Source: a virus. Taken from it: a stretch of 26,688 bases of DNA. Positions 3,434 through 24,645 of this stretch are shown piece by piece. The notes under the pieces are model-generated. The model did no database searches. It saw only the letters and a program-made list of their open reading frames with translations, and was not told where the DNA came from. A program made the translations under genes and the position numbers. How positions within the stretch are numbered: the stretch's first letter is position 1; each line of letters begins with the position of its first letter. The stretch covers positions 1-26,688 of the IMG/VR virus record IMGVR_UViG_3300003543_000160; one strand, given 5' to 3'.

Positions 3434-3975
3434 AAAGAGACGGAATATGTTTTGATACAGAAACAACGGGTCTTCTTAGACCAAACTTGACAGACTTGAG
3501 CCTACAGCCATTCATGACCGAAATATATTGCGTTAGGATAAATAAAAAATTTAAAGTTGTTGACGAGTTTCACTCGCTTTTGAAAATACCAATTCCTGTT
3601 CCCGAACATATAATTAGAATAACAGGAATAACAGACGAGATGCTTGAATATCAAAATACTTTTGCAGATAAATTTAAAAAGCTTTCAAAATTTTTCAAAG
3701 GAGCAGAATACTCGTTAGGTCATAACGTAAATTTTGATTTAGACATGATAAAATTTGAATCAAGAAGACTAGGACTAGAAAACAAATTTAATTGGCCAAA
3801 AAATGCAAAATGTACTGTTGAGTTGTCTCATCCTGTTGAAAATAAAAGGCTTCGTCTTGGATATTTATATGAGCTTGCCACTGAAAGAAAAATAGAGGGA
3901 GCTCATAGAGCGAAAGCTGATGTTATGGCAACAATAGAATGTTACAAATGGCTTTTGGAGGTCGGACTAGCATGA
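3430..3975 (+). CDS. DnaQ-like DEDDh 3'-5' exonuclease
   Basis: 181 residues, one exonuclease domain. Exo I is FDTETTGL with Asp9 and Glu11, Exo II is HNVNFDLD with Asp103, and Exo III is HRAKADV with His159 and Asp164, giving the complete two-metal DEDDh set. It should remove mismatched 3' nucleotides. The gene starts in an ATGA overlap with the small helical protein and ends in an ATGA overlap with the polymerase gene, so the two products are probably made in fixed ratio and act as polymerase plus separate proofreader, like bacterial alpha and epsilon. I see no clamp-binding peptide. Confidence 0.9.
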   Translation: MKRDGICFDTETTGLLRPNLTDLSLQPFMTEIYCVRINKKFKVVDEFHSLLKIPIPVPEHIIRITGITDEMLEYQNTFADKFKKLSKFFKGAEYSLGHNVNFDLDMIKFESRRLGLENKFNWPKNAKCTVELSHPVENKRLRLGYLYELATERKIEGAHRAKADVMATIECYKWLLEVGLA

Positions 3976-6857: not shown

Positions 6858-6868
6858 CTGGAGACAAC

Positions 6869-7471
6869 ATGAAGAAATACATGGAAACAATATCGAAACT
6901 TGCGTCTGTAAACAGATACTCGGACAGCAGACTTGTGAACAATGAGTCCGTCCTAGAGCATTCGGGATTTGTTTCAGTGATGGCTCTGTTTATATACGAG
7001 GAGCTTCTTTTGGAGGGCAGGAAAATGGATCTTGGAAAACTTCTGTCAAAGGCTATAATGCACGACATTGACGAGGTTTCTACTGGAGACATAGCAATGC
7101 CTGTAAAATACCACAGCAAGGAAATGCGGAGGATAATAAACGAGATGGAAGTTGATGCTGTAAACGAACTGTCTTTATATATTTCTGGATCACACAGACT
7201 GTTTGAAATATGGAGCTCGTCAAAAAAGGGCAAGGAAGGGTCGGTAGTTTCTCTTTGCGATTTGCTTGCTGTTATATACAAAATAAGCGACGAAGTTGCG
7301 ATGAGAGGAAACAGAACTGTTATCCACATTCTTGAGAAGGCCGAGAAGAGCCTAGGAGAAAAGCTTGTAACGATATACAGCGAGTTTAACATCGTTGAGT
7401 CTCCATTTTTAGAGAGGCTAAGAAAAGAATGTTCTGAAATAATTTACGATATAACAAGGAGAGCACAATGA
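6869..7471 (+). CDS. YfbR-like HD-domain 5'-deoxynucleotidase
   Basis: 200 residues, the same length as E. coli YfbR. The HD metal set is complete: His31 (LEHSG), His65-Asp66 (MHDIDE) and Asp131 (SLCDLL). Arg16, Glu69 and Asp74 in EVSTGD, followed by PVKY, match YfbR active-site positions and spacings. YfbR removes phosphate from dNMPs and so adjusts the deoxynucleotide pool. DatZ, the dATP triphosphohydrolase of 2-aminoadenine phages, belongs to the same superfamily, so a triphosphatase role is also possible. GGAG (6860-6863) precedes the start, 11 bp after the polymerase stop, and an ATGA overlap couples it to the ThyX-like gene. Confidence 0.8.
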   Translation: MKKYMETISKLASVNRYSDSRLVNNESVLEHSGFVSVMALFIYEELLLEGRKMDLGKLLSKAIMHDIDEVSTGDIAMPVKYHSKEMRRIINEMEVDAVNELSLYISGSHRLFEIWSSSKKGKEGSVVSLCDLLAVIYKISDEVAMRGNRTVIHILEKAEKSLGEKLVTIYSEFNIVESPFLERLRKECSEIIYDITRRAQ

Positions 7472-8559
7472 AAATTAAAATTATAGAATCGTCATTTGAG
7501 TCTGATGGAAATCATATGTCTAAAGTTGCATGGTGCAACTCCAGACCAAAAGAAAAAATGGAAGAGCTATACGGAAAAATGGTCAGGAGTTTAGATCTTC
7601 CAGTAAACGAGTTTTGCTCAGCATCAATGTTTGTTGAGTCTACTATTTTAGAAAGAGAAATAATTGTAAGCATGAGGAACCACGTCATGTGGGCGCAAAC
7701 ATCTAGAGTTCAGAATATTCTAGAGTTTGAATATCCAGATTGGATAGATGATACCGAGGTTTTTGAAAGAGTGAGAGATCGTATGATTACAGCCTCTGGA
7801 GTTAGCAGACAGGACGATTTCAGAATGGAGCTTCCAATAATGTCTACTACTAAATACTCAATACGAATGTCGGCCAGAGACATAGCACATCTCAGGAATT
7901 ATGCTGTGCATCTTCTTGAGTCTGGAAATTTTAATCATCTTTTAGAAATGTTAGAAAGCTTTATTTACGAATTCGATGCTGTTTTGGTTCATCTAGGATT
8001 TGAGATTGACGCTATCGAGAAATACAAAACGCCTGAAATCCTGAAGAGTATAAAATGCAATAGCAGCGGACATATTGGCGGAACAATAACAATAAGCGCA
8101 AGAATTTCAATATCTCTTAGAGCTCAGCTTGTCAGACACAGAAGCATACTGATAAGGGACAATCTGCGCTCAATGATGATGGATCCAGGAATAGTATACT
8201 CCTCGATCGGAGACAAAATGTTCGTTCAGATATCGGGTTTTGAAGAGGACATGATAGACATCCTCAGAAAAAGAAGCTGCTGGATAGCTCAGTATAATTT
8301 ATGGGCTCCTATTCTTAACGAGATAAGCACGATTATCGAAGCAGATAGCGCTGGTCTTCCGTGCCACGACGGAGAATGTCCTTACGAAAAAGACGCGGAA
8401 CTTCGTCTTGAAGGAAAGGACCCTAACGCGCCGTGTCCAAAACACGCGATTTTAAACAACCTGTCTATAAACTCTCTGCAGAGGGAAAAGATGATAACGC
8501 AAGCAAAAGATGACGACAGACCAGTTTTTTGGAAAGACATAATTTCTATTGTTAAATAG
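7468..8559 (+). CDS. Divergent ThyX-like (flavin-dependent thymidylate synthase family) protein
   Basis: 363 residues, against about 220-260 for typical ThyX. ISLRAQLVRHRS carries the RHR of the ThyX signature at residues 223-225, and C299-H-x3-C304 (AGLPCHDGECP) resembles the GPxC...GxCPEG tail of many ThyX proteins, with Cys323 and His326 following. However, the canonical RHRxxSxNExSxRY reads RHRSILIRDNLRS, so both serines, the Asn and the final Arg-Tyr are lost. The first half contains a weak second ThyX-like pattern (SMRNHVMWAQTSRV, then LPIMSTTKYSIRMSARDIAHL), which may be a degenerate duplication. Canonical ThyX makes dTMP from dUMP; this one may do so, act on another pyrimidine, or have lost catalysis. 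AAGGAG (7456-7461) precedes the start, which overlaps the HD gene by ATGA. Confidence 0.65.
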   Translation: MKIKIIESSFESDGNHMSKVAWCNSRPKEKMEELYGKMVRSLDLPVNEFCSASMFVESTILEREIIVSMRNHVMWAQTSRVQNILEFEYPDWIDDTEVFERVRDRMITASGVSRQDDFRMELPIMSTTKYSIRMSARDIAHLRNYAVHLLESGNFNHLLEMLESFIYEFDAVLVHLGFEIDAIEKYKTPEILKSIKCNSSGHIGGTITISARISISLRAQLVRHRSILIRDNLRSMMMDPGIVYSSIGDKMFVQISGFEEDMIDILRKRSCWIAQYNLWAPILNEISTIIEADSAGLPCHDGECPYEKDAELRLEGKDPNAPCPKHAILNNLSINSLQREKMITQAKDDDRPVFWKDIISIVK

Positions 8560-8571
8560 AAGTAGTTTTAA

Positions 8572-8580
8572 TGTTATAAT
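8572..8580 (+). promoter_or_regulatory. Extended -10 promoter inside the operon
   Basis: TGTTATAAT is a perfect TGn extension plus TATAAT, in the 49-bp gap before the deoxyribosyltransferase gene, the only real gap in the operon after 1889. No good -35 box is at the right distance (TTGTTA at 8549-8554 leaves 20 bp), as expected for extended -10 promoters. The start would be near 8587, with AGGAAG (8595-8600) as ribosome site. Confidence 0.55.
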
Positions 8581-8608
8581 ACAAGAATATTAATAGGAAG
8601 ATCACTCA

Positions 8609-9064
8609 ATGAAAATTTATATAGCATCCCCGTTTTTTAATGATGAACAGCTTGATCTTGTAAAGAGCATAGAGAGGTCTCTAGACTCATCTATGACAGA
8701 GTATTTCTCTCCGAGAAGCTTCGGTGTCATAAAAGATATGACGCCAAGAGAAAAGTGGCTTAGAATGGAAGAGATCTACGATTCTAATATCTCAAACATT
8801 CTTTCATGCGACACAATGATAGCAGTTGTTGACTGGCCTGACACCGGAACAATGTTTGAATTGGGATTTGCGGCTGCGTCTCCAAAAGAAGTCGAGAATA
8901 TAATAACTTTCACAAGCAATCAAAAGCCTGTGAATGTAATGCTGAGATATGCAATATGCGCTCATGCAAGGGGAATCAAAAACCTTGAAGAAATTGTATT
9001 CTCGATAAAACAATGGGGATACGTTGAAGACGACATCACAAATTTTCCAGAGGTGAATACATAA
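8609..9064 (+). CDS. Nucleoside 2-deoxyribosyltransferase family protein
   Basis: 151 residues, the normal size for the family. It begins KIYIASPFF, the family's N-terminal strand and loop, and carries VDWPDTGTMFELG with Asp75, Asp78 and Glu84, where the ribose-binding Asp and the nucleophilic Glu are expected. The family breaks or exchanges the N-glycosidic bond of deoxynucleosides or dNMPs, salvaging bases or supplying unusual ones. AGGAAG (8595-8600) lies 8 nt before ATG. Its stop overlaps the ligase start (TAATG). With the HD nucleotidase and ThyX-like protein it forms a nucleotide-pool module. Confidence 0.85.
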   Translation: MKIYIASPFFNDEQLDLVKSIERSLDSSMTEYFSPRSFGVIKDMTPREKWLRMEEIYDSNISNILSCDTMIAVVDWPDTGTMFELGFAAASPKEVENIITFTSNQKPVNVMLRYAICAHARGIKNLEEIVFSIKQWGYVEDDITNFPEVNT

Positions 9065-10170
9065 TGAAAGATCGAATAGACTTATACAAAAAAGACTCGA
9101 GAGGCAAGATGAGAATTTGGTCTATATGGTCTGATGAAGACTATATAATTATGGAGCACGGAGTTCTTGGAGGTGAAATCCAAGAGAACTCGGAACCGAT
9201 CCATTATGGTCTTGCAAACAGGACAAAAGAAGAACAGATCGCAATGAGGATTAATAGCAGAGTGAGCAAAAAGCTTGATTCGGGACACTGTACGACGCCC
9301 CAGAAAGCCCTTACAGGAAGCAATAGCAATACGCTTGGCTACGCAAGGCAAATGAACGCGCATAGCCTAAAACGTCTGTCAGACACGCCTAGCAATGGCG
9401 TATACATACAGCACAAGTTAAACGGCCACCGATGCAGTATAATAAACGACAATGGCACTATGAAAGCCTATAGCAAAGGAGGAAGGCTAATAACTTCCAT
9501 TCCGGAAATACTTTCCGAATACGAAGGAGTACTAAAGAAAAAACACAGACCTATTGACGGAGAACTTTACCATCACGGAACCCCATTGCAAACGATCGGA
9601 AGCTGGGTTAAGAGGAGACAGCCAGACACCTTGAAACTAGAGTTCAAGTGTTTCGATTATATGGATCCAGAAAAAACCTTCGAAGAAAGAGATATATTCT
9701 TGAGAGCATTTGAGTTCGGTAAAAAATCGGAATACATAAACACTTCTTATTTAGTTGGAGAGTTTAATCTTCTTTCGCTTCTAAAAAGAGCACTCAAGGA
9801 AAAATATGAGGGACTGATACTACGCTTGCCACACGGCATGTATGAGGAGGGCAAGCGTTCCAAAAATGTCCTAAAGGTTAAGCGGAAAATAACTAGTGGT
9901 ACAGAAGAAAGTTTTATGCTGGATGACGAATTTCTAGTTGTTAATATAAAAAGCTCCGTAGATGGATGGGCGATTTTAATTTGCGAAACAGAAAATGGAG
10001 TAAGATTTAGCATGTCAGCTCCAGGAAGTGTTCCCGAAAAAACTCTTATTTTAAAAAATAAAGACGAGTATATTGGAAAGCACATAAGGGCAGAGTTCGA
10101 GGGATACACAAGTGGTAAAAAGCCTGTAGAGGCGGTCGCGTTAATGTTTAGGGAAAAGAGTGATGAGTAA
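9064..10170 (+). CDS. ATP-dependent DNA ligase with N-terminal WGR domain
   Basis: 368 residues. Residues 1 to about 65 are WGR-like (LYKKDSRGKMRIWSIW, then GVLGGEIQ), a nucleic-acid-binding module. The adenylation domain has the nucleophile Lys118 in HKLNGHR (motif I, usually KxDGxR), IDGELYHHG with Glu167 (motif III), FKCFDYM (IIIa), YEGLILR with Glu249 (IV) and LKVKRK with Lys271 and Lys273 (V). A C-terminal OB fold of about 80 residues starts near DDEFLVV. It seals nicks during replication. Asn replaces the usual Asp in motif I. AGAGGTG (9049-9055) precedes the start, which overlaps the previous stop by one base. Confidence 0.93.
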   Translation: MKDRIDLYKKDSRGKMRIWSIWSDEDYIIMEHGVLGGEIQENSEPIHYGLANRTKEEQIAMRINSRVSKKLDSGHCTTPQKALTGSNSNTLGYARQMNAHSLKRLSDTPSNGVYIQHKLNGHRCSIINDNGTMKAYSKGGRLITSIPEILSEYEGVLKKKHRPIDGELYHHGTPLQTIGSWVKRRQPDTLKLEFKCFDYMDPEKTFEERDIFLRAFEFGKKSEYINTSYLVGEFNLLSLLKRALKEKYEGLILRLPHGMYEEGKRSKNVLKVKRKITSGTEESFMLDDEFLVVNIKSSVDGWAILICETENGVRFSMSAPGSVPEKTLILKNKDEYIGKHIRAEFEGYTSGKKPVEAVALMFREKSDE

Positions 10171-11857: not shown

Positions 11858-12099
11858 TATAATTCCTCGTATATCGGGACTTGTTCCATCTCTCGACACA
11901 TCGCGTTGTACTGTATAAGTCGCTCCAATGTATCGAAGCGTCGCTTAATGGCTCCTACTGGAACGGCTTTACATATTGTCCACAAAGCGTCGTGCAGAGC
12001 AGCGTCTGAAGTTTCTTGTCCATACTGTCCCACGTATGCTCGATACCGAGAGCATCCTGAAACCGAAATAAGCAAAATTAAAAGTGCGAGGTTTTTCAT
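11857..12099 (-). CDS. Small lipoprotein of the lysis block
   Basis: 80 residues from ATG 12099, with AGGA 7 nt upstream; a longer frame to 12150 would run into the hub gene and lacks a site. MKNLALLILLISVSGC is a lipoprotein signal with lipobox VSGC and lipidated Cys16. The mature part of about 64 residues has two more Cys and the pattern TICKAVPVGAIKRRFDTLERL. It may be an outer-membrane spanin-like factor, but it is not proline-rich as Rz1 proteins are and no inner-membrane partner was found. This gene is the main support for a Gram-negative host. Confidence 0.72.
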   Translation of the reverse strand: MKNLALLILLISVSGCSRYRAYVGQYGQETSDAALHDALWTICKAVPVGAIKRRFDTLERLIQYNAMCREMEQVPIYEEL

Positions 12100-12112
12100 A
12101 ATAGAGTCCTGT

Positions 12113-13930
12113 TTAAAAGTTGGATGATTCCAAAAATGCAAAGCCGCCATCTTCGAGAATTAATGGGAAGGCGTCTTCGTTTAAAATTAAGTCGTAGCTC
12201 AATGTTGTACTTAAAGTGAAATGACTTTTGTCGTACCTAATTCCTTTAACTCTGTAAACACCATAGTCTACCATCGTTATTTCAGAAACCCAAAGCAAAA
12301 TGTTTACGCCTCTGACATCGTCCTTTAGCTGAATTATTGTGCCAACTCTAAACATTATCCCTTCGGAATAAACATCAAATTTAATATCAACTCGATCTAT
12401 GCCTCTTGATATTTTTCTTATACCTCTGTTTTGTGCTTGAAGAATTGTTGGCATTCCATACATATTTAAATTAGATTTTATTAATGGAATCTGTCCTGAA
12501 AGCGCAAGAGGATGTCCAATTTCGGTTTCGCTTTCTTTCCAGTTCGCGCTAGAAGTAGTGCTTTCTTTATGTGAAACAACAATGCTATTTGGTAGTCCGC
12601 GATCAGAAGGACCTCCTATGTCTAAAGAGCCAATCCACCTTTCCTGTAACCACGCAAGCCGCCTCACAGCCATCGAAGATATCACGGCAGAAACGCCATC
12701 TGGAGCAATTATTTCTATTGTGCTTGAAGCACCAATAGCCTCGTATGGAAGTCTAAACTCTCCAGAGGCTATTTCAAGAGGCATAATTTCTACGCCGCCA
12801 ATTAGTATTTTTATCCCTGCTCCAGACACTGATTGAATTACTATCATGCAAGAGTAGTCAACGGAGTTTTCTGTAACAATTGTTGAAGAAAGTATTTCGT
12901 CAAAGCCAGAAACATTATTTACGGTCGCGACGCCAGAAGATATTGTCCAAGACCCTCCTTCTGTCCAGCCAGTATTAGAATTAAAATCACCGTTTGTCAA
13001 AACGTCTTTTCCAAAAGGCAAATCTGCGGACAATTCTTTGTCTGGCGACAATAATACTTTTTCTTTATATGGTTGCCAGATACATGCCGCATACTCCGAC
13101 ATCACGTTTAGAACACTTTCTGTTCTTGTTTGTCTGTTGAAGACTACTCCTCCGTGTCCGTGTGGTATGAGAGGATTGTCCTCCAACGGAATGTCACACC
13201 AGTCTTTTGACTCCACAAGCCCATCAAGCTGAGCGCCTAGTCCATACAGCTTGTTTGAGGCAATATCGCCCATCATCAGGGCAAAATTATTTGAAAACAA
13301 ATTTCCAGCTGAATACGAATCGGAATCGGCATAGGGAATTGCAATCGCGGAATGATCTCCACCGTATCTTATATTTCCAATATTAATGCGCCACGAAAAC
13401 ACTTCTAGAGAAGACTCCCAGCCGCCAGAGAAAGACCCGACGTGCCAAGACTTATCTGTTGGGTCATAGATGTATAAGTTGGTGAGGATCGTAAAAACTT
13501 CCATCCCATTAAAAAAGAATACTATTGCTCCGTTTGAATGCTCAATCGTCAAATAGTATTCCGATATCGTCAGACCGCTATATATGACAACACCGTTTGC
13601 AATGTCCCAGCTAATACCGTCAGAAGAAAGATATATTTTCAAAGTGTCTGCGACCCGCTCGACCCAAATACTTTTTTCAATAGTTGAATTTACTAGAATC
13701 GTTCCTCTTGTGACAAGCTCTGCATGTTTTAGTCTCAACTCTGCGGAAATTACATTGAATCCAAAATCAGAAACCACGCCAGCCGGTGAGGCTTTTGCAT
13801 GAGAGAACGTCCTAGAAAAATCAAGGAAAGAAAGTTTTGTTATTGGCGCGGCTCCGGCCTGCGTTTCTAGAAGTCCATCTCCGTCTTGGAGAAGTACGGA
13901 GCCGAGACCATCATTTAATAATAATGACAT
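12113..13930 (-). CDS. C-terminal half of a gpJ-like tail hub, with lectin-like domain
   Basis: 605 residues. Residues 1-25 hold a short motif LLLNDGLGSVLLQDG. About 30-190 look like a jelly-roll lectin domain (NGAIVFFFNG, then SLEVFSWRINIGNIR). From about 200 the sequence follows the middle and C-terminal parts of lambda gpJ-like hubs: SNNFALMMGD, VFNRQTRTESVLNVM, WQPYKEKVLLSPDKE, and at about 450-560 ILQAQNRGIRKISRGI and VGTIIQLKDDVRGV. The last residues repeat the first motif (LILNEDAFPLILEDG). It lacks the N-terminal part of a hub; that part lies 2.7 kb upstream in its direction of transcription. Together they should form the tail tip that contacts the host. The ribosome site is weak (CGAGA). 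Confidence 0.72.
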   Translation of the reverse strand: MSLLLNDGLGSVLLQDGDGLLETQAGAAPITKLSFLDFSRTFSHAKASPAGVVSDFGFNVISAELRLKHAELVTRGTILVNSTIEKSIWVERVADTLKIYLSSDGISWDIANGVVIYSGLTISEYYLTIEHSNGAIVFFFNGMEVFTILTNLYIYDPTDKSWHVGSFSGGWESSLEVFSWRINIGNIRYGGDHSAIAIPYADSDSYSAGNLFSNNFALMMGDIASNKLYGLGAQLDGLVESKDWCDIPLEDNPLIPHGHGGVVFNRQTRTESVLNVMSEYAACIWQPYKEKVLLSPDKELSADLPFGKDVLTNGDFNSNTGWTEGGSWTISSGVATVNNVSGFDEILSSTIVTENSVDYSCMIVIQSVSGAGIKILIGGVEIMPLEIASGEFRLPYEAIGASSTIEIIAPDGVSAVISSMAVRRLAWLQERWIGSLDIGGPSDRGLPNSIVVSHKESTTSSANWKESETEIGHPLALSGQIPLIKSNLNMYGMPTILQAQNRGIRKISRGIDRVDIKFDVYSEGIMFRVGTIIQLKDDVRGVNILLWVSEITMVDYGVYRVKGIRYDKSHFTLSTTLSYDLILNEDAFPLILEDGGFAFLESSNF

Positions 13931-13945
13931 TTTTATATCTCGTTA

Positions 13946-14542
13946 TTAGTCGAAAGTGTATCCAAATTCGTCTATTATCGGTTTGCATTCTTTCTCAACA
14001 TGCTCTTTAAGACCTTCTTCTAGGCTATATATAAACTTCCAGAATCCATCCTTGAATTTTTCAGTTGTTAAAACGCCGTTTACTGGAGGTGTCTTTTTCA
14101 GAGTTCCTATCAAATCTTTTCCAAGTATTTCAGAAATTATTTCAAAAACTTCTTCTCGTCCGGAAACGTCGCCAAGCCAGTCGACTTTCATTCGGTTTTC
14201 GACAGTCCCGTAATAGCCGTGAAAGTATTTCACCATTTCCGAAGCCATGTGGGTTTTTATCTTATGAACGATCTTTTTTCTATTGTCCGGATATCCTCTC
14301 CTATGCTCAACGGACACTCTTAATGTTGAAAAGGAAACGCACCACTCCCACGGATTTCTAACAAATCCGAACTTGTATAAGCTTGGATCTATCTCCTTAT
14401 TGTAGTATCTATCTTCTTTTGTTATGAGGTTGTCAGGGGAAAATAATTTTACGTCATGCTGTCTAGCGATATGCTTTAAAAGAGTCCCTCCTGTTCTTGG
14501 AAGATGATAAAAAGCTACTTTGTTGTCCAATATTACCATCAT
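13946..14542 (-). CDS. PAPS-dependent sulfotransferase family protein
   Basis: 198 residues. FYHLPRTGGTLLKHIA (residues 11-26) is the 5'-phosphosulfate-binding loop of the sulfotransferase fold (PKTGGT type). FGFVRNPWEWCVSFS (58-72), with Arg62 and Ser70, is the 3'-phosphate-binding motif. It should move sulfate from PAPS to a hydroxyl or amino group, probably in the cytoplasm because no signal or membrane segment is visible. The acceptor is unknown: a glycan, a lipid, or a Tyr or sugar on a tail protein are all open. The start overlaps the fibre gene stop (ATGATG, CGGAG about 8 nt upstream), and the hub C-half starts 15 bp after its stop, so it is expressed with the tail genes. Confidence 0.8.
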   Translation of the reverse strand: MMVILDNKVAFYHLPRTGGTLLKHIARQHDVKLFSPDNLITKEDRYYNKEIDPSLYKFGFVRNPWEWCVSFSTLRVSVEHRRGYPDNRKKIVHKIKTHMASEMVKYFHGYYGTVENRMKVDWLGDVSGREEVFEIISEILGKDLIGTLKKTPPVNGVLTTEKFKDGFWKFIYSLEEGLKEHVEKECKPIIDEFGYTFD

Positions 14543-15507
14543 ATCGAAGCTCCGTTATACCATCCAGCTCCAGAGTTGTCTTGAGTGTTTACCGCTGGTC
14601 CACTAACAGGGGTTGCAACGCCAGTAAATTGAATTGTCGAGGCTCCATACTCTATTAATCGACTATTGTTTTTAATTAGTATTCCGATTGAGTATCCGTT
14701 TATGTCAAGCCCTCTAGCATATAAAAAAGACCCTTCATCTAGTATTATTGCGGTTCCCGATCCAACAAGATTTGGAACAGATCCCTTTGGCGATTTCGTC
14801 TTGGCTTCAAGAGTCCTTAATATTGAGTCCTTTTTTACTTTTATGTTCGCAAGAGAAACATCATATAGAGAAAGCACAGATCTGTTTATTACAGAAGCCT
14901 TTTTAATTGTTCCTGTTGTTTTTGAAATGTATGCTTCTGAGTTGTCCAGTGTTAAAGAGAAGTTTGTCCCGAACTCTACCCCATCCATTAGCATTTCTGT
15001 AGAAGCAGAAAGAATGAAATTTACAATAGCTACTCCAGCGAAAGATCCTCGGAACTCGAAGTGTCTGCCGGTGCATTCTGCAAAAATGTTTATTTGGCTT
15101 ATTGCAGTTTCCCACATCATTCCGACTGGAGAAACCGAAGAGCTGTCAAGAACCACATTATAATTTGTGCGAAGAACTATACCAAAATTGTTGACCGCTT
15201 CCGTATAGTTCGCCTCCATCGCAATTATAACATCGCCATCGGTTCCAGACTTCTTTTCTGGATGCTCTGTTAAATAATCAATAGCTTCTTTTATCGTTGT
15301 GAAGTCGCCAGTTGGACCGAGAGTGTATGCAACTTTTGATGGTTGTCCAAGTCCTCCAGACAGGCCGGAAACTAAATTCGCCTTTGTTATTTGTTTTGAT
15401 GTTCCTGCTGGATCGTCAGTTGTATCGCTTGCGTCAACAACATAAATCAGATCAGCATCATCTATCGTTGCTAAAACCGGAAGTCCTGTTAATTTTGTGT
15501 CAGTCAT
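14539..15507 (-). CDS. Tail fibre/spike protein with beta-helix-like body
   Basis: 322 residues. Residues 1 to about 50 (KLTGLPVLATIDDADLIYVV, DPAGTSKQIT) form an N-terminal module shared with the neighbouring fibre. GDFTTIKEAIDYL near 70 is the usual entry to a right-handed beta-helix of pectin-lyase type, and the rest is rich in short Val/Ile/Asn strands as in such helices. The C-terminus is Gly/Asn-rich (AGWYNGASI). It is likely to be a receptor-binding or glycan-processing appendage, though no catalytic residues can be assigned. An AGAGG site precedes the start. Confidence 0.72.
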   Translation of the reverse strand: MTDTKLTGLPVLATIDDADLIYVVDASDTTDDPAGTSKQITKANLVSGLSGGLGQPSKVAYTLGPTGDFTTIKEAIDYLTEHPEKKSGTDGDVIIAMEANYTEAVNNFGIVLRTNYNVVLDSSSVSPVGMMWETAISQINIFAECTGRHFEFRGSFAGVAIVNFILSASTEMLMDGVEFGTNFSLTLDNSEAYISKTTGTIKKASVINRSVLSLYDVSLANIKVKKDSILRTLEAKTKSPKGSVPNLVGSGTAIILDEGSFLYARGLDINGYSIGILIKNNSRLIEYGASTIQFTGVATPVSGPAVNTQDNSGAGWYNGASI

Positions 15508-15532
15508 TTTTCTCTACCTCTTTAATTTTATT

Positions 15533-16621
15533 TTATCCAGCGACAGGGATCATTGTGCTATCGTAAAAAACCCACTCGTTTCCCAAAAAGATCATAGAAA
15601 AGCCCTGATAGAAACTGCCAAAATCCAAACCAACATTTGTTGTCGTTGCTCCGGAAGTCATTATGTCTGCAACAACTTTTGTTCCTCCGTCTATTATAAC
15701 CTGATAGTTAAAGCTAAAAGAAGTTTTAACATATCCAACTCGATCACCTACAGACGGAGAGGAAGGAAGAGTTATTGTTATGTCTTCTTCTGCGGCATCG
15801 CAGTCGCAGTAATAAAATTCTCCGGCCGAAGCGGAAAAGCTTGATATTTTCTTTGTTAAAATTCTACTCCACTCAGAACCCCCAGAAGGAGTTTGCCAAA
15901 CAAGATCTTTATTTGTGGTTCCTGTTCTTGTTAAAACTTTTCCTGAAGATCCATTCGAGGGAAGTGCAGAAAGAAGATCTATATTCGCCAAAAAGTAAAA
16001 TTCAGACCACTCGTTTCCTCCAAGGACTTCAAGAAAACTACCGACATAAAATTTTCTCTGCCAAGTTATTGCATCATCACTGGCTTCAATTTCAAAGCAC
16101 TTGAAAGATCCAGAATCCGTTGCTATTGTTCCAAGAGCTGCATATTGTCTAATTGAAACTATCGCTCTTGGATCTGCACCAAAATCCCACATAAGAAAAA
16201 ATGCAGGATTGGAAACTGTTGTCGCATCCCATAGGCAAGCCGCCGCTATTGGATTAACCTCGCCATTCGCTAATATAGAAGGGGGATTGCCAACGTCTTG
16301 TGATGTTCCTGTCAAGGTTGAAAGCGTTTGAACGGCAACATAATCCCCAGACTGGTCCAGCTCCATTAAATCTATTTCATCCAGCGCTACTGTGAATTCA
16401 CCAGTCGGATCTGTGTTTGCGGTGTTTGCATTGGCTCTTGCGTTTATCAGTCTCCAGTATCGAAACTTTTTTGTTGAGGCTCCGGACACTTGTGAAACCG
16501 TAAGGCGCTTGGAGCTTCCGGCGGGGGAATCTGTTATGTCCAACGGGTCTACAACAACAATCAATTCATCACCAGAAATAATTGGTAGCGCTGGCAGTTC
16601 CGTTATTTTTCTTCCGCTCAT
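15533..16621 (-). CDS. Tail fibre protein with discoidin-like (F5/8 type C) region
   Basis: 362 residues. The first 50 (KITELPALPIISGDELIVVV, DSPAGSSKRLT) match the N-terminal module of the next fibre. From about 53 to 195, RYWRLINARAN, AACLWDATT, WDFGADPRAIVSI and IEASDDAITWQRKF follow the pattern of discoidin-like carbohydrate-binding domains. The C-terminus (ITLPSSPSVGDRVGYV, then FLGNEWVFYDS) is a beta domain common at fibre ends. The role is probably binding a surface sugar of the host. An AGGATGAG site lies before the start, and the hub N-half stop is 5 bp away. Confidence 0.72.
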   Translation of the reverse strand: MSGRKITELPALPIISGDELIVVVDPLDITDSPAGSSKRLTVSQVSGASTKKFRYWRLINARANANTANTDPTGEFTVALDEIDLMELDQSGDYVAVQTLSTLTGTSQDVGNPPSILANGEVNPIAAACLWDATTVSNPAFFLMWDFGADPRAIVSIRQYAALGTIATDSGSFKCFEIEASDDAITWQRKFYVGSFLEVLGGNEWSEFYFLANIDLLSALPSNGSSGKVLTRTGTTNKDLVWQTPSGGSEWSRILTKKISSFSASAGEFYYCDCDAAEEDITITLPSSPSVGDRVGYVKTSFSFNYQVIIDGGTKVVADIMTSGATTTNVGLDFGSFYQGFSMIFLGNEWVFYDSTMIPVAG

Positions 16622-16625
16622 GATC

Positions 16626-17867
16626 TCATCCTATTGAAAAGTTGTCGAAATGACCTATCAGACTGTCAGAAAACGAACCATCATCCAGTGCCATTATACA
16701 AACTCTGCTCTGCTGAACAGAGTGCCCTATGTGAGTGTTGCTTGCCTGTAATATCGTGTCCATCTTTATGCTAAACAGATCTCCGATGATTTCAAACTTA
16801 ACATCATAAGACTGGTCTGCAAGCATCTCCGTAGAACCAACAGACTCACTTCCATTGTATGAAAAGGCAAGATATCTACCTTTAATATAGATCGAAAGCT
16901 CGTTCGCTCCAGTTCCTATAGACATCAAATAATCTTTGTCTGCGCCAGCAAGGGGTCCAGAGAATTCCCCTATAACAACTTTAATATCAACGACAGCATC
17001 CACACTTGCTGGAATTATTGCTATGTCAGAAACAGCACAGTCTCCGGAGTCTATTGTTCTCAAGGACTCTGATCCAGCATACAAAAGTCCGTACGAGGAG
17101 TGCGCGTTACCAACAAGAGACCACACTGCTCCTGAAGTCCCAAGCTCAGAAACAGAATCGGTGGTTCCAAGTGTCCTAAGACCACTAGAGTCTACAACTG
17201 CATTTCCAGTAAGAGACAGATTATAATTCGAAGAAGAATCTGTTCCACCGGATTCAAAATCTACTTCAGCGATATTATCATCGGCATAAGGATCTGTTGA
17301 CGCTACAAGGTCTGGGTCAGTAACTATTGACCCATTGATTATAGCCTTGAAGCTAAGTGCTTTTCCGTCAATTACTGAAGTTTGTATTTTGAAAACCGAA
17401 TAGCAAATCCCTATTCTGTCACCTCGATAATCTATTACACAATCATCCGTATAGCTTGGAATTACGGCAGCAAGCCAAGAGTCTACGAGTTGTGTTTTTG
17501 ATCCAGTATAATTTCTAACCTGAACTCCAGCGGATATAGGCTCGTCATTTATGAAAATCCTTTCTACCGACCCCACTTGTCCCAAGCACCATCCTATAGC
17601 AACATATCTGTAAGCTCCAGAAACTGTCGGAGTAACAATTATATGTCCCTGTATTGGTTGTGTTCCGTAAATTAATGGAACATCACCTCCATCGCCAGTG
17701 ACCGCGGACGAAACCATTCTTGGCGCTGAATACGAGTTTATGTTCCTCAGCGAGGGTCTTGAATTTACGATATTAAACAAAGCTTCCTGAGCCAATGCTG
17801 ATTCAGCCTTTTGTCTGCGAATGAATTCTGCAAATCTTGGATCTGGAGTTATAGCGCCAGCAGCCAT
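16626..17867 (-). CDS. N-terminal half of a gpJ-like tail hub, with C-terminal lectin-like domain
   Basis: 413 residues. After a helical start, residues about 60-200 read like the N-terminal part of gpJ-type tail-tip hubs: DVPLIYGTQPIQGHIIV, AIGWCLGQVGSVERIFINDEP, and a later GICYSVFKI. From about 205 to the end (ADDNIAEVDFESGG to GHFDNFSIG) there is a jelly-roll lectin-like domain, as often inserted in or attached to tail proteins. The gpJ core stops where that domain begins and resumes in the gene at 13930-12113. The start codon overlaps the stop of the upstream 191-aa tail gene by one base. Confidence 0.7.
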   Translation of the reverse strand: MAAGAITPDPRFAEFIRRQKAESALAQEALFNIVNSRPSLRNINSYSAPRMVSSAVTGDGGDVPLIYGTQPIQGHIIVTPTVSGAYRYVAIGWCLGQVGSVERIFINDEPISAGVQVRNYTGSKTQLVDSWLAAVIPSYTDDCVIDYRGDRIGICYSVFKIQTSVIDGKALSFKAIINGSIVTDPDLVASTDPYADDNIAEVDFESGGTDSSSNYNLSLTGNAVVDSSGLRTLGTTDSVSELGTSGAVWSLVGNAHSSYGLLYAGSESLRTIDSGDCAVSDIAIIPASVDAVVDIKVVIGEFSGPLAGADKDYLMSIGTGANELSIYIKGRYLAFSYNGSESVGSTEMLADQSYDVKFEIIGDLFSIKMDTILQASNTHIGHSVQQSRVCIMALDDGSFSDSLIGHFDNFSIG

Positions 17868-18442
17868 TATCTGACCCCTCCTTGAGTTCCTAATACCAAT
17901 TCTCTAGGTGAATCTACATTTTGTAAAGCTCCAGTTCCCCAATTTAAATTATCGCCAGTTGTAGGCATGTGATTGCAAAACTGATTGAATCTAAAAGGAG
18001 GGATCAGCGCTCCAGACAAAGCTCTATGAAGAATTTTCATATTTATAGAAGAGTTTTTGTCATCGTAATTTGAAGAATCTATTTTTCCATCAAGGACAAC
18101 TATTGCGTCTGATAGACTAAACGTCATTGGGGTTCCAATTGGAGCAATTATAAAATATATCTTGCAGTGTCCGTTCCTCCATCTTGAAGACTGTACTTCT
18201 CCAATTCTAACAGGAGTTGCGTTTAACTCTATGCTGGCAGACTGATGAAGCTTCATTCCGCTTATTGAGGCTTGGCCACCGATGTAGCTTTGAGAATCGA
18301 ATTCCAAATTGCCATTGAAAGAAATATATTCTTCGCTTGCTCCGTGGAGTATTTTCATTATCATTATTGGCTTTGTCGCTCCGCTTGACAGTATTGAAAT
18401 CTGTTGCGCTGTCAAGTCGCCAAGAGTATCGTAAAGACTCAC
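17867..18442 (-). CDS. Distal tail / tail-tip assembly protein, 191 aa
   Basis: The start is GTG 18442, overlapping the preceding stop as GTGA, with GGAG 7 nt upstream. The product is beta-rich with SYIGGQASISGMKL, SSRWRNGHCKIYFI and VVLDGKIDSSNY, then FNQFCNHMP near the end. Its position between the tape measure and the hub matches the distal tail and hub-adaptor genes of siphoviruses (lambda L/K region; DUF2163-like proteins in other phages). The DUF assignment is tentative. The Cys near the end could bind metal, but no full motif is seen. Confidence 0.6.
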   Translation of the reverse strand: MSLYDTLGDLTAQQISILSSGATKPIMIMKILHGASEEYISFNGNLEFDSQSYIGGQASISGMKLHQSASIELNATPVRIGEVQSSRWRNGHCKIYFIIAPIGTPMTFSLSDAIVVLDGKIDSSNYDDKNSSINMKILHRALSGALIPPFRFNQFCNHMPTTGDNLNWGTGALQNVDSPRELVLGTQGGVR

Positions 18443-18777
18443 GTCAACACTCCACGGAACGAAAAGCTAACTAGTGCTACATTCCCAGATTCAAAAGTTG
18501 TTTTTGGAGCAGACCAAATATAACCGCGATAAGTTTTTGCAAGATAAACAAAATCAAATTCCTGTGCTTTGTTGTCTCTAACATACTGAGCAAAGTCGTC
18601 AGCCTCCTGCAAATACATTTCCACAAACTTGCATTGTATTATCCTGTAGTCAGAGGCTCCGATCTCTCTAATCGCCATAGACCCATCACTGAATTCGCTT
18701 CTAGATATTGAGTCTACGTCTTCAAATGCGGTCTTTGGAGAAAGACGATAAGTGCTAAGTGGGAAAACGATTGCCAT
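18439..18777 (-). CDS. Distal tail protein, 112 aa
   Basis: A small beta-rich protein starting MAIVFPLSTYRLSP, with SDYRIIQCKFVEMYLQEADDFAQYVRDNKAQEFDFVYLAKTY-type spacing: a strand, a helix and further strands, close to lambda M-like minor tail proteins placed just after the tape measure. It begins one base after the tape-measure stop with AGGGGAAG as ribosome site and overlaps the next gene by 4 bp. The role is inferred from position and size; I did not recognise a specific family. Confidence 0.6.
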   Translation of the reverse strand: MAIVFPLSTYRLSPKTAFEDVDSISRSEFSDGSMAIREIGASDYRIIQCKFVEMYLQEADDFAQYVRDNKAQEFDFVYLAKTYRGYIWSAPKTTFESGNVALVSFSFRGVLT

Positions 18778-18778
18778 T

Positions 18779-21700
18779 TTAAACTTCCCCTACAACTCTC
18801 GGTGAGAATGAAGAGCCAGACGATAAGCTGTTTGCCAAGACGTTTGCTGCCCTTGTGATTAATTCAGCAGCATCAAGAAAAGTGTTTGCTGAAGCTGCGG
18901 TTTTGTCTGCGGTTTCTCGCATTGCTCTTCTAGCATCTGCATTAATTCTATCTTGTGATCTGCTAAGTTCATTAAGAACTTTTGATAACTGCGATTGAGC
19001 AATTTCGTTTGTGCGGTCAACAAAAGATGCGAATTTTTCAGCGTTCACTAATTGTTGCTCTTCACTTAACGCATCAAACAAAACCCTATTGAGCCTTGCG
19101 ATTTCCGTGGCCGCTTGCTGAATTTCTTCGGGAGAGGTTAAAGACCTCAACGACTGTCTTAATTGATTCCTCTCTGTTCTTGCATCTGACAAAACTTCTT
19201 TTTCAGTTTTTACAGAGTCTCTAATGCTTTGCGCGGAGCCTTCTAGAAGATTTCCCAAGCTTTGCTGAAGCTGTAAAACTCCAATCGCCAAAGCTCCAGC
19301 AGCTTGCTTTGTTGCTAGTAGTCCTGCGGCAAGAGTTTCTGTTGCAAGTGCCGTTCCGTCATAAGCTACAGTAATATCCTTCACGGCAGAAAGCTGAGTC
19401 CTGTAAACGCTCATTAAAGAGTTTCCGGAAAGCTCTGCTATTTTTTCGGACTCTATCATTGCTGAATTAAAGTCTTCAACAATTTGTTTTACATTATTAG
19501 ACTCTGTTAGCTCTGATATTGCCCTTAAATTAGAAACGAAAGGCAAAAGCTCTTGAGCAGATCCCTCAAACTCTAAAGCCAGAGTTTTCATTGCTGGAGT
19601 TAGCGCTTCAGAGCTTTTTATTATTTTGTCCATTCCAGCTTCCACAAGCTCCAAAGCGCTATCAAACTTTTCTCCGTCCAATTTAAAACCAGATACATTT
19701 CCAACCCTGACCTTCCCTGAAAAGCTTGATCCGCCTAGTACATCAGAAAAGTCTTTTAGCGCAAGAACTATAGAGTCAACAGCGTCAAGATTTTTTTGAT
19801 CGAATTCGCCGACCCCTCTGGAACTAATCTGTCCGGTTCCAAAATCAAATTCTGATATGGCAGAATTATTGCTTTTTCCACCGATCAGGCTACCTATTCC
19901 GTTTCCAAGGAAGCCACCTATCGCCGCTCCCAATGCGGTTCCAATCACCGGAATTATAGAGCCAACAACACCTCCAACAACCGCCCCGATAGACCCTCCG
20001 GTCGAGCCATTTTTAGAATCACCAAATACGGCATTGCCCAAAAAGTTGCCAGCTATCCCCGCTCCGGCTGTGGCAATTCCTCCAGTTACAAAGTCGGCTC
20101 CGAGATTTCCTGTGCTGCCAAAAAGACCGTTTACATTTTGACCGACCCCTGCGATTCCTTGAGCGACCGATGTTCCTGTTGTCCCTAGTCCAGACAGTGC
20201 ATTAAATCCATTCACCCCAAGCGAACTTATGCTAGTCCCAATTCCAGAAATCCCGCCAGAAAACAGAGAGCTTACAGAAGAGCCTCCACTAATCAGTGAT
20301 GAAAGTCCACCACCTCCTCCGGACAGCAAGCTTGCTCCTTGCGAAAGAATTGACCCGCCGACAGCGCCACCTCCACCGAATAATAATTGCATTATTCCGT
20401 TTGATGCCGCCTGAGCAGCCATCTTTATAAGCATGTTTTTAAAACCGTCAAGGATTCCGCTAAAAGCGTCGCTACCATTTTGCGCCATGTCTACAAAGAA
20501 GTCTGTCATTCCGTCGCGGCCTTCCAGCCACGCTTTTTCTGTTTCCTTCGCCGCTTCTGTTGCTGCCTTTGCAGAGTTTTCAGCAGACTTAACAGCGGCT
20601 TTTTCTGCCTCTCCGGACTTTTTAATACTTATATCTTTTATCTCGTTTATCCATTCAAGATTTTGTTGTTCTATTCGCAGCTCCATAACCTTTCTTTGAA
20701 TAGATCTTCCTTCTGCGGTGTTCGCGGCGACTCCAGCGTCTTTCAAAGCATTATATAATTTCTGCTCCTCGTTTGTCCTGCCTACTGCCGCTATTTCTTC
20801 ATCAAGCTTGTCAAGAACGTCCTGAAGAGAGTCTGAAAGACCGTCCAATTCTTCAGCGGCCAATTCGACCTCGTCTTTTAAATCCTCCGTTGTTGACGCC
20901 GCCTCTTCTCCAGCGTCGCGAAACTCAATTGCTGCTTCTGTGGACTTGTCAACCTCAAGTCTCAATTCATCGTATTTTTTGGCAGTATCTTTTACAACAT
21001 CGCCAAGACTCTTTGTTGGTGAGCGCAAATCATCAATTTCTTTTCCGAACTTTTCAATTTTCTTGGCAGCGCCAGTTCCAAACATTTTATCAAAAGCTTT
21101 CCCTCCAATTTTTGCCAAGTCAACTAAGACTTTCATCATTGAGAGGATGTTGTTTTTTACTTTGTTGACTTCGTTAGATATTACTTCAAATACGGTCTCG
21201 ACCGTCTGTCCTAAGAATAAGAATCCTTTTACCATTTCGCCGCCGACCAAAATGCGAACTATATCTAAATTGTCAAAAAAGTCCTTTGACGATACGGCCG
21301 CTCCTCCAAAAGTTTCTGACAAGAATTCACCAGCACCACTTAAATCCCACAAGAATTTTGTGAGGTCGATAACGCCGCCAACCGCAAAACTTATGCCGTT
21401 AACGAAAGCTGCAAGTCCATCAACCAAAAATGTTAGAGCTCTTCCCAATCCGGTGTCAACGGACATAACAAGAGAAAGCTCTTCAGCTGCAGAACCAAGA
21501 CGCTTCATTGCTCCGTCAAGAGTGTCTGTTTTCGTTGCTGCTTGTTCTTGTGCTATTGAAGTTCCAGTTATATTTTCCGTAAGCGTTGCAAGAGCGGAAG
21601 CGTTTCCATCTATCGCCTGAACGCTTTTTACAAGAATTTCTCCAGCGACCAAGTTTCTATTGCCGAACAGTTTTACTTTTTCCGCCGAAGTTAAGTTCGC

Positions 21701-22645
21701 CTCACCAAGATTTTGCAAGGCCTTTTCTAGCCCTACTACAGAAGGCTTAAACTCGTCGCTCATTTTTGTTTCGAGCGCCAACAAAACGCCTCTTAACTGT
21801 GTTCCAGCTTCTCCGCCTTTGATTGCGTTTGTAGAAAAAATTTGCAATGCCGCATTTGTTTCTTCAAAACTTAACTTGAAAGTTGAAGAAACAACTCCAG
21901 CGAATTTCAAAGACTCGCCCATTTCTGCTATTGAGGCCGCACCGAATTTAGAGCCAGCGGCCAAGACGTTTGTGAATCTCGCGGCTTGATCAGCTTCAGC
22001 ACCAAATTGATTTAATGCACTGGCCATAGTGTTTGCGGCTTCAGGAACCGAAATTCCTGCGGCCTCCGCAAGAGTTATCGCTTCAGCAGTTACAAGGGCG
22101 AGAGCTTCTTTGCTGGAAAGCAAATCGGGCTTTGCACTGGCCACTAGTTGGAAGGCTTGAGCAACTTCAGAGGCGGAAAGAGTTGTAACTTTTCCCATTT
22201 CCCTAGCTTTGTCTGAGTAAAACTCAAGATCTTTTCCGGTTGCTCCGGTGATTGCAGAAAGGTTCGCAATTGACTGATCGAACTCCTTAAACTTTGCAGC
22301 GGTTCCGAGCACAGCTATCCCAATCGCAGCTATTGCAGAGGCGATTCCTAGTTTTGCGAATCCACTAAAAGAAGTTTTTAGGCTTTTAGCTCCTCCGGAA
22401 AGTCCGTGTATAGAGTCGTTTGCCGACTTTGCGCTCTTCGCCATTTTCTTAAAACGCTTGTCAACTTCGCCAGTAGACTTTGCGATTCTTGCGCCAGATT
22501 CTGCTGAGACTTTTGAGGTTTCTTTAAGCTCTTTTTGCAGCTTGTCGTTTCCCTTCTCGATCTTTTTCAGATCGTCAACGATCTTCTTAGACTTCTGTCC
22601 AGAATCAGTTTCGATTTTAACATTTACTAGCGAATTTAATTCCAT
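18779..22645 (-). CDS. Tail tape-measure protein
   Basis: 1288 residues. An N-terminal coiled coil (about 1-75), a hydrophobic segment near 95-115 (IASAIAAIGIAVLG), then a TP901-type core (about 120-330) with FDQSIANLSAITGATG and later SALNQFGAEADQAARF. A second hydrophobic stretch lies near 405-435, a Gly-rich linker at about 748-790, a third hydrophobic stretch near 888-925 (VGGVVGSIIPVIGTALG), and C-terminal coiled coils. It fixes tail length and passes DNA through the membrane. At the usual 0.15 nm per residue it predicts a tail of about 190 nm (inference). An AGAGGAAAGG site precedes ATG, right after the chaperone extension. Confidence 0.93.
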   Translation of the reverse strand: MELNSLVNVKIETDSGQKSKKIVDDLKKIEKGNDKLQKELKETSKVSAESGARIAKSTGEVDKRFKKMAKSAKSANDSIHGLSGGAKSLKTSFSGFAKLGIASAIAAIGIAVLGTAAKFKEFDQSIANLSAITGATGKDLEFYSDKAREMGKVTTLSASEVAQAFQLVASAKPDLLSSKEALALVTAEAITLAEAAGISVPEAANTMASALNQFGAEADQAARFTNVLAAGSKFGAASIAEMGESLKFAGVVSSTFKLSFEETNAALQIFSTNAIKGGEAGTQLRGVLLALETKMSDEFKPSVVGLEKALQNLGEANLTSAEKVKLFGNRNLVAGEILVKSVQAIDGNASALATLTENITGTSIAQEQAATKTDTLDGAMKRLGSAAEELSLVMSVDTGLGRALTFLVDGLAAFVNGISFAVGGVIDLTKFLWDLSGAGEFLSETFGGAAVSSKDFFDNLDIVRILVGGEMVKGFLFLGQTVETVFEVISNEVNKVKNNILSMMKVLVDLAKIGGKAFDKMFGTGAAKKIEKFGKEIDDLRSPTKSLGDVVKDTAKKYDELRLEVDKSTEAAIEFRDAGEEAASTTEDLKDEVELAAEELDGLSDSLQDVLDKLDEEIAAVGRTNEEQKLYNALKDAGVAANTAEGRSIQRKVMELRIEQQNLEWINEIKDISIKKSGEAEKAAVKSAENSAKAATEAAKETEKAWLEGRDGMTDFFVDMAQNGSDAFSGILDGFKNMLIKMAAQAASNGIMQLLFGGGGAVGGSILSQGASLLSGGGGGLSSLISGGSSVSSLFSGGISGIGTSISSLGVNGFNALSGLGTTGTSVAQGIAGVGQNVNGLFGSTGNLGADFVTGGIATAGAGIAGNFLGNAVFGDSKNGSTGGSIGAVVGGVVGSIIPVIGTALGAAIGGFLGNGIGSLIGGKSNNSAISEFDFGTGQISSRGVGEFDQKNLDAVDSIVLALKDFSDVLGGSSFSGKVRVGNVSGFKLDGEKFDSALELVEAGMDKIIKSSEALTPAMKTLALEFEGSAQELLPFVSNLRAISELTESNNVKQIVEDFNSAMIESEKIAELSGNSLMSVYRTQLSAVKDITVAYDGTALATETLAAGLLATKQAAGALAIGVLQLQQSLGNLLEGSAQSIRDSVKTEKEVLSDARTERNQLRQSLRSLTSPEEIQQAATEIARLNRVLFDALSEEQQLVNAEKFASFVDRTNEIAQSQLSKVLNELSRSQDRINADARRAMRETADKTAASANTFLDAAELITRAANVLANSLSSGSSFSPRVVGEV

Positions 22646-23466: not shown

Positions 23467-24645
23467 TTACGGAGTGAAGCGATCAATCCTCATCGCTGTT
23501 ACCAACGAAACAGGATCAAGAATAGCCTGAACTTCGCTTTCCACAATCATGTCAGTATCTTTGCTTCCCGCCGCCAAGTTCTGCGTACTAAATTTAACAT
23601 TTGGAAGAGTGAAAATGTAATCGTAACCGTCAGAAGAACTCAGTTGCCAAGACAGAGAGAACGCTCCGTTATTAAGAAACGATTCTAATAGCTCTTTATC
23701 TTCAAAGTACGGATTGATAGTTGCGTTCGCTACGATTGTTCCAGCGACAACATCAATACTTCCAAGTGTTCCAAGAGCTTTTAATTCACGCAGAGCATTG
23801 TCATAAGACAAAGTCAATGACGTGAATCGTATTACGGTAGAAATGCCAACCCCAACTGCGCTAATATTGGTGACATCTCCAACTGCATTCATAATATCAT
23901 TTGTGTGCTTTGCCAGCTCTGTTTGTCCGGCGATTATACTTTCTGTGACGTCACCACTAACACCCAAAAGACCAAACGAAACTTTTGCGAGATCTCCAAC
24001 AGAAAGCTCCATGTTCATTGTCGAAACACGAACACCACGGAAGTTTTGATAAACAACTGGAGAAACACCTCTATGCGCTTTTTGGAAGGTGTATGAGTGA
24101 TCTGCTTTTCCACTTTTTATTGTCTGGCCTTTGTAGGTGACAGTCGCGCCTTCTGCTTCTATAGCAGGAGGAACAGGGAACGTATCAATAGATCCAGCGG
24201 TCAATGATGTTATTCTATAGAAGCCATCTATCGTGGTGTCTGTGAATCCAGACAGACTTATATACTGACCAACTTGTATTCCAGAAGCGATCAGGCCATT
24301 TCCTGAGTCAGTAAATCCAGTTCCGGTGGAGGCAATTGTTGCCTCGCCTCCGTTGTCAGTGGAAGTCCACGTTGAGTCTGTAAGCATTGCACCTTCTAAA
24401 AGCTCGTCAAAGGCAACAGAGCTAAACTCACAGTTTATGTCTCCAGCATTTGACTGATCTGTTAGAACTAGATCAGAAGTAGCGCGATCATCTCGCAATT
24501 CCTCTGACATAGTAGTTGAGTTGCTAGACTGCAAGCTCTCTCCGGTGATTCGCAAAAGCTGCAATGCAGGGCTTACTGGAGTTTCACCAGCTATTAATTC
24601 CTTGATAAAGGAAAGTGTTGTTGAATTACTTGTTCCAATTGTCAT
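23467..24645 (-). CDS. Major tail (tube) protein
   Basis: 392 residues. The N-terminus has LIAGETPVSPALQLLRITGESL, then RDDRATSDLVLTDQSNAGDINCE and FDELLEGAML, the pattern of long-form phage tail-tube proteins that stack as hexamer rings. A middle part (residues about 90-170) with DNGGEATIASTGTGFTDSG, DGFYRITSL and VTYKG looks like an inserted Ig-like or surface domain. GAGGAGAG precedes the start. The genes around it (terminator upstream, chaperone downstream) agree. Confidence 0.85.
   Translation of the reverse strand: MTIGTSNSTTLSFIKELIAGETPVSPALQLLRITGESLQSSNSTTMSEELRDDRATSDLVLTDQSNAGDINCEFSSVAFDELLEGAMLTDSTWTSTDNGGEATIASTGTGFTDSGNGLIASGIQVGQYISLSGFTDTTIDGFYRITSLTAGSIDTFPVPPAIEAEGATVTYKGQTIKSGKADHSYTFQKAHRGVSPVVYQNFRGVRVSTMNMELSVGDLAKVSFGLLGVSGDVTESIIAGQTELAKHTNDIMNAVGDVTNISAVGVGISTVIRFTSLTLSYDNALRELKALGTLGSIDVVAGTIVANATINPYFEDKELLESFLNNGAFSLSWQLSSSDGYDYIFTLPNVKFSTQNLAAGSKDTDMIVESEVQAILDPVSLVTAMRIDRFTP

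Follow-up and report, generated by a model that had tools for sequence, protein, structure and literature searches.

A phage tail hub probably encoded in two parts around fibre-like genes in the IMG/VR record IMGVR_UViG_3300003543_000160

The tail hub of phages opens the tail channel upon receptor binding, and in lambda the hub domains HDII, HDIII and HDIV form a ring around the tail lumen and attach to the tail. According to the hub passages of the respective papers, the hubs of both JBD30 and lambda are built from more than one chain (PMC11445458, PMC11101478), the JBD30 hub has attachment sites for fibres (PMC11445458), and in lambda HDII-ins1 and HDII-ins2 stand directly before the border region considered here (PMC11101478). 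In the R4C megatron, the domain description in PMC10276861 places an adhesion-like domain at residues 46–211, followed by peripheral and carbohydrate-binding domains at 212–903. Here we describe the putative hub locus of the virus record IMGVR_UViG_3300003543_000160, of which positions 1 to 26,688 (the window, 26,688 nucleotides) were analysed. Judged from profile matches, two minus-strand genes of the window, hub chain 1 (N) and hub chain 2 (C), match complementary and abutting hub parts, and the gpJ/megatron-type tail hub of this phage is probably made of two polypeptides, divided at a border between domains and with accessory genes filling the gap.

As in the lambda tail tip (gpL, gpI, gpJ), the hub domains would be distributed over several chains with their genes side by side; C aligns with HDII–HDIV of the gpJ family, and the start of N has its counterpart in a gpI-like C-terminus. 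However, the lambda break lies between gpI and gpJ, ahead of HDII-ins1, whereas in this phage the plug and adhesion-like modules appear fused in N, the break comes after them, and three genes are placed inside it. With the GTA and roseophage megatrons (RcGTA, R4C, R5C, DSS3P8) the locus shares the match of N to the adhesion-like region, and the break would correspond in R4C to the passage into the peripheral and carbohydrate-binding domains, as these are delimited in PMC10276861; GTA-like hubs differ in that the junction is kept in one gene (72/72 and 6/6 in two panels), and in that C has no match on their C-part profile. The closest tail module found was that of the L018-type hub (IMGVR_UViG_3300031676_000030; locus L312 at 55%), which has 186 extra residues at the junction, and which is accompanied by a tube protein about 60% identical to that of this phage and by a tape protein 59% identical over its first 430 residues. 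The L018 hub is, in contrast, a single chain of 1050 amino acids, and in L312 two open reading frames (ORFs) of unknown kind follow the hub. Finally, a group of GTA-like hubs (L150, L156, L162/L177, L165, L171) is likewise made from two ORFs, but there the break lies elsewhere, the ORFs abut or overlap, and no genes intervene.

Complementary hub parts in the two genes

Profiles were built from fetched hubs, and N and C were scored on them among 1000 shuffles of each (2000 in all). The N-part profiles represented GTA-like hubs (gN) and the hubs of PY54, 83AMN and L025 (pN), and the HDII–HDIV profiles were derived from 16 lambda/PY54-like hubs (Cpart) and from the L018 type (l18C). N scored 15.7 bits on gN, with 5.7 as the best of the 2000 shuffles, and 15.3 bits over residues 63–185 on pN (best shuffle 6.4), while C gave no row on gN and −1.7 on pN. 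C in turn scored 13.3 bits on Cpart in two colinear pieces (212–274 and 498–540; best of 2000 shuffles 6.3), where N reached −0.8, and 8.1 on l18C against 5.8 for the best shuffle. The intact L018 hub, used in neither profile, obtained 18.5 bits on gN and 11.7 bits on Cpart, and the hubs of 83AMN, PY54 and L025 scored on both pN and Cpart, all three having helped to build those profiles.

In library searches, N matched GTA_megatron at positions 113–165 of 1299 (E 7.4e-6) and C matched TipJ_rel at positions 282–360 of 477 (E 0.0045), both partially and far under the curated cut-offs; weak matches were phrog_4271 (107–184 of 1309) for N and phrog_469 (715–785 of 903) for C. By hhalign, residues 58–148 of N were aligned to residues 58–185 of a GTA-like hub with a probability of 91.5% for one five-sequence set and of 70.8% for a four-sequence subset. 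In an alignment with L018, L025 and a lambda-family hub, C could be followed across HDII–HDIV. Among the ORFs of the window, the hub profiles returned N with E-values of 2.1e-5 and 2.5e-5 and C with 6.8e-5, and no other clear hub piece was met when the scan took in the window and another 19.9 kb of the longer contig (46.4 of 46.5 kb), the next best scoring 6.8 bits. The earlier note, made from the letters alone, had placed the N-terminal part of a hub at 17867–16626 and its later parts at 13930–12113, and this assignment stood, with complementary matches above 2000 shuffles and with failures on some related profiles. Both halves aligning to the same hub part was an outcome it had named as speaking against it; the halves were found to cover complementary, abutting parts.

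Several results weigh against this reading. N scored −1.6 on the lambda-family N-part profile (best shuffle 5.8) and 5.7 on the L018-type N profile, under the best shuffle of 7.3, and its hhalign probabilities for the other five hub sets were at most 6.6%. C, unmatched on the GTA-like C profile, reached 9.9 when scored on HDII/III only, scarcely over the best shuffle (9.2), and 7.0 on HDIV only, under the best shuffle (7.7); against all seven hub sets its hhalign probability was at most 1.2%. On a full-length L018-type profile neither N nor C exceeded the best shuffle. Structure models from small alignments gave no usable fold, with predicted local distance difference test (pLDDT) values of 34 and 41 for the two halves. 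No relative of N or C was returned by tblastn in phages at E 1e-5, by scans of viral contigs beyond the same contig, or in the genomes searched (0/369 for each half). Moreover, the 46.5-kb contig may be incomplete, and a hub gene outside it is therefore possible.

Wider searches gave seven weak partial records per half (tblastn in phages at E 10) and, in the PDB by sequence at E 10, one chance match for N (E 1.4) and none for C. Prophage relatives were sought by the tube protein, and none was present in the genome contigs searched; in three loci close in tube protein (L019, L033, L083) the tape gene is followed by other proteins, as far as the contigs extend. The unsplit homologue for which the earlier note had proposed to search was not obtained, since the searches above turned up no independent relative of N or C.

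The segment with which N begins is matched, in lambda-family phages, by the C-terminal end of gpI-like proteins, and in GTA-like hubs it lies within the hub chain. In 30 of 80 lambda-like loci (L223–L302) and in eight prophage loci (e.g. L113, 15719–16324), the C-terminus of the gpI-like ORF directly before gpJ matches columns 1 to ~80 of the profile of GTA-like hubs. Such matches suggest that the end of gpI and the N-terminus of single-chain hubs may be the same element.

Gene run, contig and cassette

On the minus strand the order is tape measure gene, the genes for 112 and 191 amino acids, N, fibre-like 1, fibre-like 2, putative sulfotransferase and C, followed by small genes including an M15 peptidase (Table 1). 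The place of a hub gene, after the tape measure and two small tail-tip genes, is taken by N. The domain order of the hub is kept, but its continuity in one gene is broken between 16626 and 13930.

Table 1. Features of the window, and split places of GTA-like hubs at other loci
Feature	Position	Strand	Length (aa)	Remarks
Hub chain 1 (N)	16626..17867	-	413	Putative plug segment and adhesion-like (HDII-ins1-type) module at ~1–185, then 228 further residues
Hub chain 2 (C)	12113..13930	-	605	211 leading residues, predicted HDII/HDIII from ~212, inserted module ~305–425, then HDIII/HDIV up to ~575
Module inserted in chain 2	12647..13030	-		Residues 301–428 as cut; also in L019, L009, L044
Fibre-like protein 1	15533..16621	-	362	In break
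Fibre-like protein 2	14539..15507	-	322	In break
Putative sulfotransferase	13946..14542	-	198	In break; phrog_3347, E 0.0013
Protein in gpL position	17867..18442	-	191	
Protein in gpM position	18439..18777	-	112	Assigned from place and size only
Tape measure protein	18779..22645	-	1288	
Tail tube protein	23467..24645	-		Phage_tube_2, PF18906
GTA-like split hubs	L150 7761; L156 4088; L162 and L177 8307; L165 7671; L171 7908			L171 on same contig as L091

From the coordinates, the 191-residue gene overlaps N by 1 nt, N and fibre-like 1 are 4 nt apart, the two fibre-like genes 25 nt apart, fibre-like 2 overlaps the sulfotransferase gene by 4 nt, and the latter ends 15 nt before C; the two fibre-like genes and the putative sulfotransferase thereby occupy the 2695 nt between N and C. 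Seven adjoining one-strand genes (18442–11857) have overlaps of 1–38 nt or gaps of 4–25 nt and a similar codon use. Both N and C have a codon score above zero in frame 0 only, and the ribosome site is strong for N and weak for C. The ORF coordinates, strand, sizes and tight spacing given in the earlier note, and its sum of 1018 residues (413 + 605), were all confirmed.

Its description of the inserted genes as a fibre-sulfotransferase cassette was right as to three one-strand genes in 2695 nt, the identities of fibre and sulfotransferase standing on weak PHROG matches. The name fibre comes from such matches and from a common N-terminus, the two proteins being 36% identical (E 1e-9) over about the first 90 residues, with no reported match beyond. 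The name sulfotransferase leans, beside one weak PHROG match, on motifs presumably of this kind. The fibres probably attach at the tail tip.

The tube (PF18906) and tape proteins of the phage are ordinary. In gpL/HDI homology searches, the 191-residue protein did no better than shuffles on five profiles of gpL or neighbour proteins. The two small genes before the hub encode 112 and then 191 amino acids here and 175 and then 110 in L018, and a comparison of these genes between the two phages did not demonstrate kinship; taken gene by gene, the tail-tip modules of this phage and of L018 do not look like orthologues.

The module inserted in C also occurs in L044, in a protein that L019 encodes behind its tape gene, and in a protein of an Edwardsiella phage (L009) whose gene stands among those for the head. 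Replication genes occupy 3430–10170 of the window, namely an exonuclease, a bacterial-type DNA polymerase III alpha, a YfbR-like nucleotidase, a ThyX-like protein (weak) and an ATP-dependent DNA ligase.

A second IMG/VR contig, IMGVR_UViG_3300028843_000261 (46.5 kb), is 100% identical across window positions 3116–26588, in two overlapping pieces, and has the same gene order; because of this identity it does not count as a replicate. An intron or other known RNA was sought in the window, and no Rfam match reached the gathering threshold. Programmed rearrangement was likewise dismissed, as none of the 14 direct-repeat families and 16 inverted pairs (at least 14 nt) in 12000–18500 lies at the cassette borders.

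The break and its counterparts in other hubs

The length of the junction was counted from the strand ending the N match to the helix starting the C match, between typed motifs. It comes to 6 residues for each of 83AMN and PY54, 21 for lambda gpJ, 31 for L036, 186 for L018 and 190 for L025, and in this phage N continues for 228 residues after the hub strand and C has 211 residues before the hub helix. Because of the match of N, the domain passage after residue 211 of R4C is taken as the same border. Hardies et al. describe, in their treatment of the lambda hub (PMC13243795), the nearby site of its division into several chains as a focus of hypervariability. As far as sequence comparison can place it, the break is at a domain border, not through a domain, and this border, between the adhesion-like/HDII-ins1 module and HDII, is a site of insertions in hubs. 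Since multi-chain hubs (lambda gpL, gpI, gpJ) are already known, the new aspect is the place of the break, and a limited search of the PubMed Central literature retrieved no description of a hub divided here.

The extra residues of N (after ~190) and of C (before ~205) had no Pfam match at E 10 and no detectable sequence kinship to each other. By eye only they look lectin-like, in C partly, and they may bind sugars. The lectin-like domains that the earlier note had seen on either side of the break were not corroborated, with neither a Pfam match nor, at the pLDDT values given above, a usable model. Its further proposal, one hub-internal lectin domain as the landing place of the cassette, is not supported, because the extra domains are unrelated by sequence, none of the repeats of at least 14 nt brackets the cassette at its borders, and no relative in the pre-insertion state was found.

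Other hubs were surveyed in panels of the best matches listed, with 177 scorable loci that were not dereplicated and include two contigs twice (L143 and L051, as well as L171 and L091, are the same contigs). The count of the first panel took in only loci with both N-part and C-part matches, and the junction lay within one ORF in all 26 of them, 20 of the lambda/PY54 type and 6 GTA-like; in that panel L036 and L077 extend past their contig ends, and for Chi-type and Aeromonas-type hubs a single whole profile was used in scoring. The same was true of 72 of 80 GTA-like loci, the other eight having no C-part match and a hub ORF that runs off the contig end, and of 79 of 80 lambda-like loci, some of which contain just the end of the N-part; L239, whose N-part is internally divided between two overlapping frames, was taken as unbroken at the junction. 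The hubs of L018 and L312 are intact. No natural break at this junction was thus seen among the 177 scorable hub loci. The GTA-like panel was collected with an N-part query and the lambda-like panel with a C-part query, and therefore hubs with a break here would have appeared.

The remaining lambda-like locus, L248 (IMGVR_UViG_3300042010_000132), joins other phage genes (head genes by eye) at position 5932 to a lambda-like hub fragment; it looks like a chimeric contig, with its join near this same border by chance, and was set aside.

Six of the 72 GTA-like loci, representing five lineages, encode the hub by two ORFs that abut or overlap at another fixed place. The place corresponds to columns ~87–120 of the C-part profile, after an FDxVES-like strand, and stop and start codons lie close together there (TGATG, ATGA or others). 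This split is read as natural because it is conserved in five lineages and in two 99%-identical contigs (L162 and L177), and its recurrence indicates that hub fission recurs. An annotated gene spans the same place in six records that have a hub of this kind (five named viruses and one metagenome-assembled genome), picked from the 60 listed of 124 matches.

A broken hub frame at position 4616 of L313 is an ordinary frame error, as the near-identical L312 (99.95% over 8.1 kb) is intact. Tandem copies of the hub gene were seen in L165 (two, 4279–9118), L197, L218 and L220 (two each) and L201 (three), some cut by the locus ends.

Proposed arrangement and alternatives

The proposed chain 1 would begin with the plug segment, continue with the adhesion-like (HDII-ins1) module and end in an extra domain, and chain 2 would start with its own extra domain and continue into HDII, HDIII and HDIV, with a further module inserted. 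The break would fall at the border that has a short linker in 83AMN and PY54 and inserts in L018, L025 and probably the R4C megatron, and the fibre-like genes and the putative sulfotransferase would occupy the gap within the same gene run. A break between modules leaves each chain able to fold by itself, and the two probably come together again non-covalently at the tail tip, with three copies of each if the analogy with lambda holds. Both chains would assemble in the virion, and the split state would have arisen by fission of a one-gene hub. That the hub is made from two polypeptides, as the earlier note had held, agrees with the complementary halves and with the want of another clear hub piece in 46.4 kb; hubs of more than one chain as such are already known.

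The chief rival, which we regard as unlikely, is that C alone is a complete minimal hub lacking the HDII-ins domains and that N is a free-standing adhesin or plug. It is made possible by the hubs of T5 and LSH1, which the hub comparison in PMC13243795 gives as lacking HDII-ins1/2, and it agrees with a break at a domain border and with the coverage of HDII–HDIV by C in the alignments. However, N also holds the N-terminal segment, a gpI-like end in the lambda family and a part of the hub chain in GTA-like hubs, and it takes the position of the hub gene, ahead of the fibre-like genes. Still less probable is an origin of the halves from different hubs, with chain 1 a remnant of the old hub and chain 2 recombined in together with the fibres, in which case the hub may work poorly or through chain 2 only. 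Such an origin would account for N matching GTA-like and PY54-like profiles, not lambda-family ones, and C matching lambda-family and PY54 profiles, not GTA-like ones, as well as for tail-tip proteins unlike those of L018 despite the similar tube and tape start. The same mixture is, however, found within single proteins (83AMN, PY54 and L025 on pN and Cpart, L018 on gN and Cpart), and both N and C look like well-kept genes.

An assembly artefact, in which the contig fuses two phages or misplaces the cassette, is very improbable. Errors of this sort do exist, as the chimeric join of L248 near this border and the broken frame of L313 relative to L312 illustrate, but the seven tightly spaced one-strand neighbours have similar codon use, a single-base error cannot put three whole genes into a hub, and the order recurs in IMGVR_UViG_3300028843_000261, which is not independent. 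A hub made as two chains by this phage is the reading that we retain as probable.

What is new is the location of the break and the cassette in it, gene splitting in phage tail tips itself being known. Given the role of the hub in opening the tail channel once a receptor is bound, a break filled with fibre genes would show that the channel core and the adhesion modules are separable and exchangeable. With the recurrent split of GTA-like hubs beside it, where a hub may be cut becomes a testable question. Tentatively, hubs may repeatedly be split where one domain meets the next, the resulting chains re-assembling, and the passage from the adhesion-like module to HDII may accept whole receptor-binding genes, so that host-recognition cassettes could be swapped in mid-operon with the channel core undisturbed.

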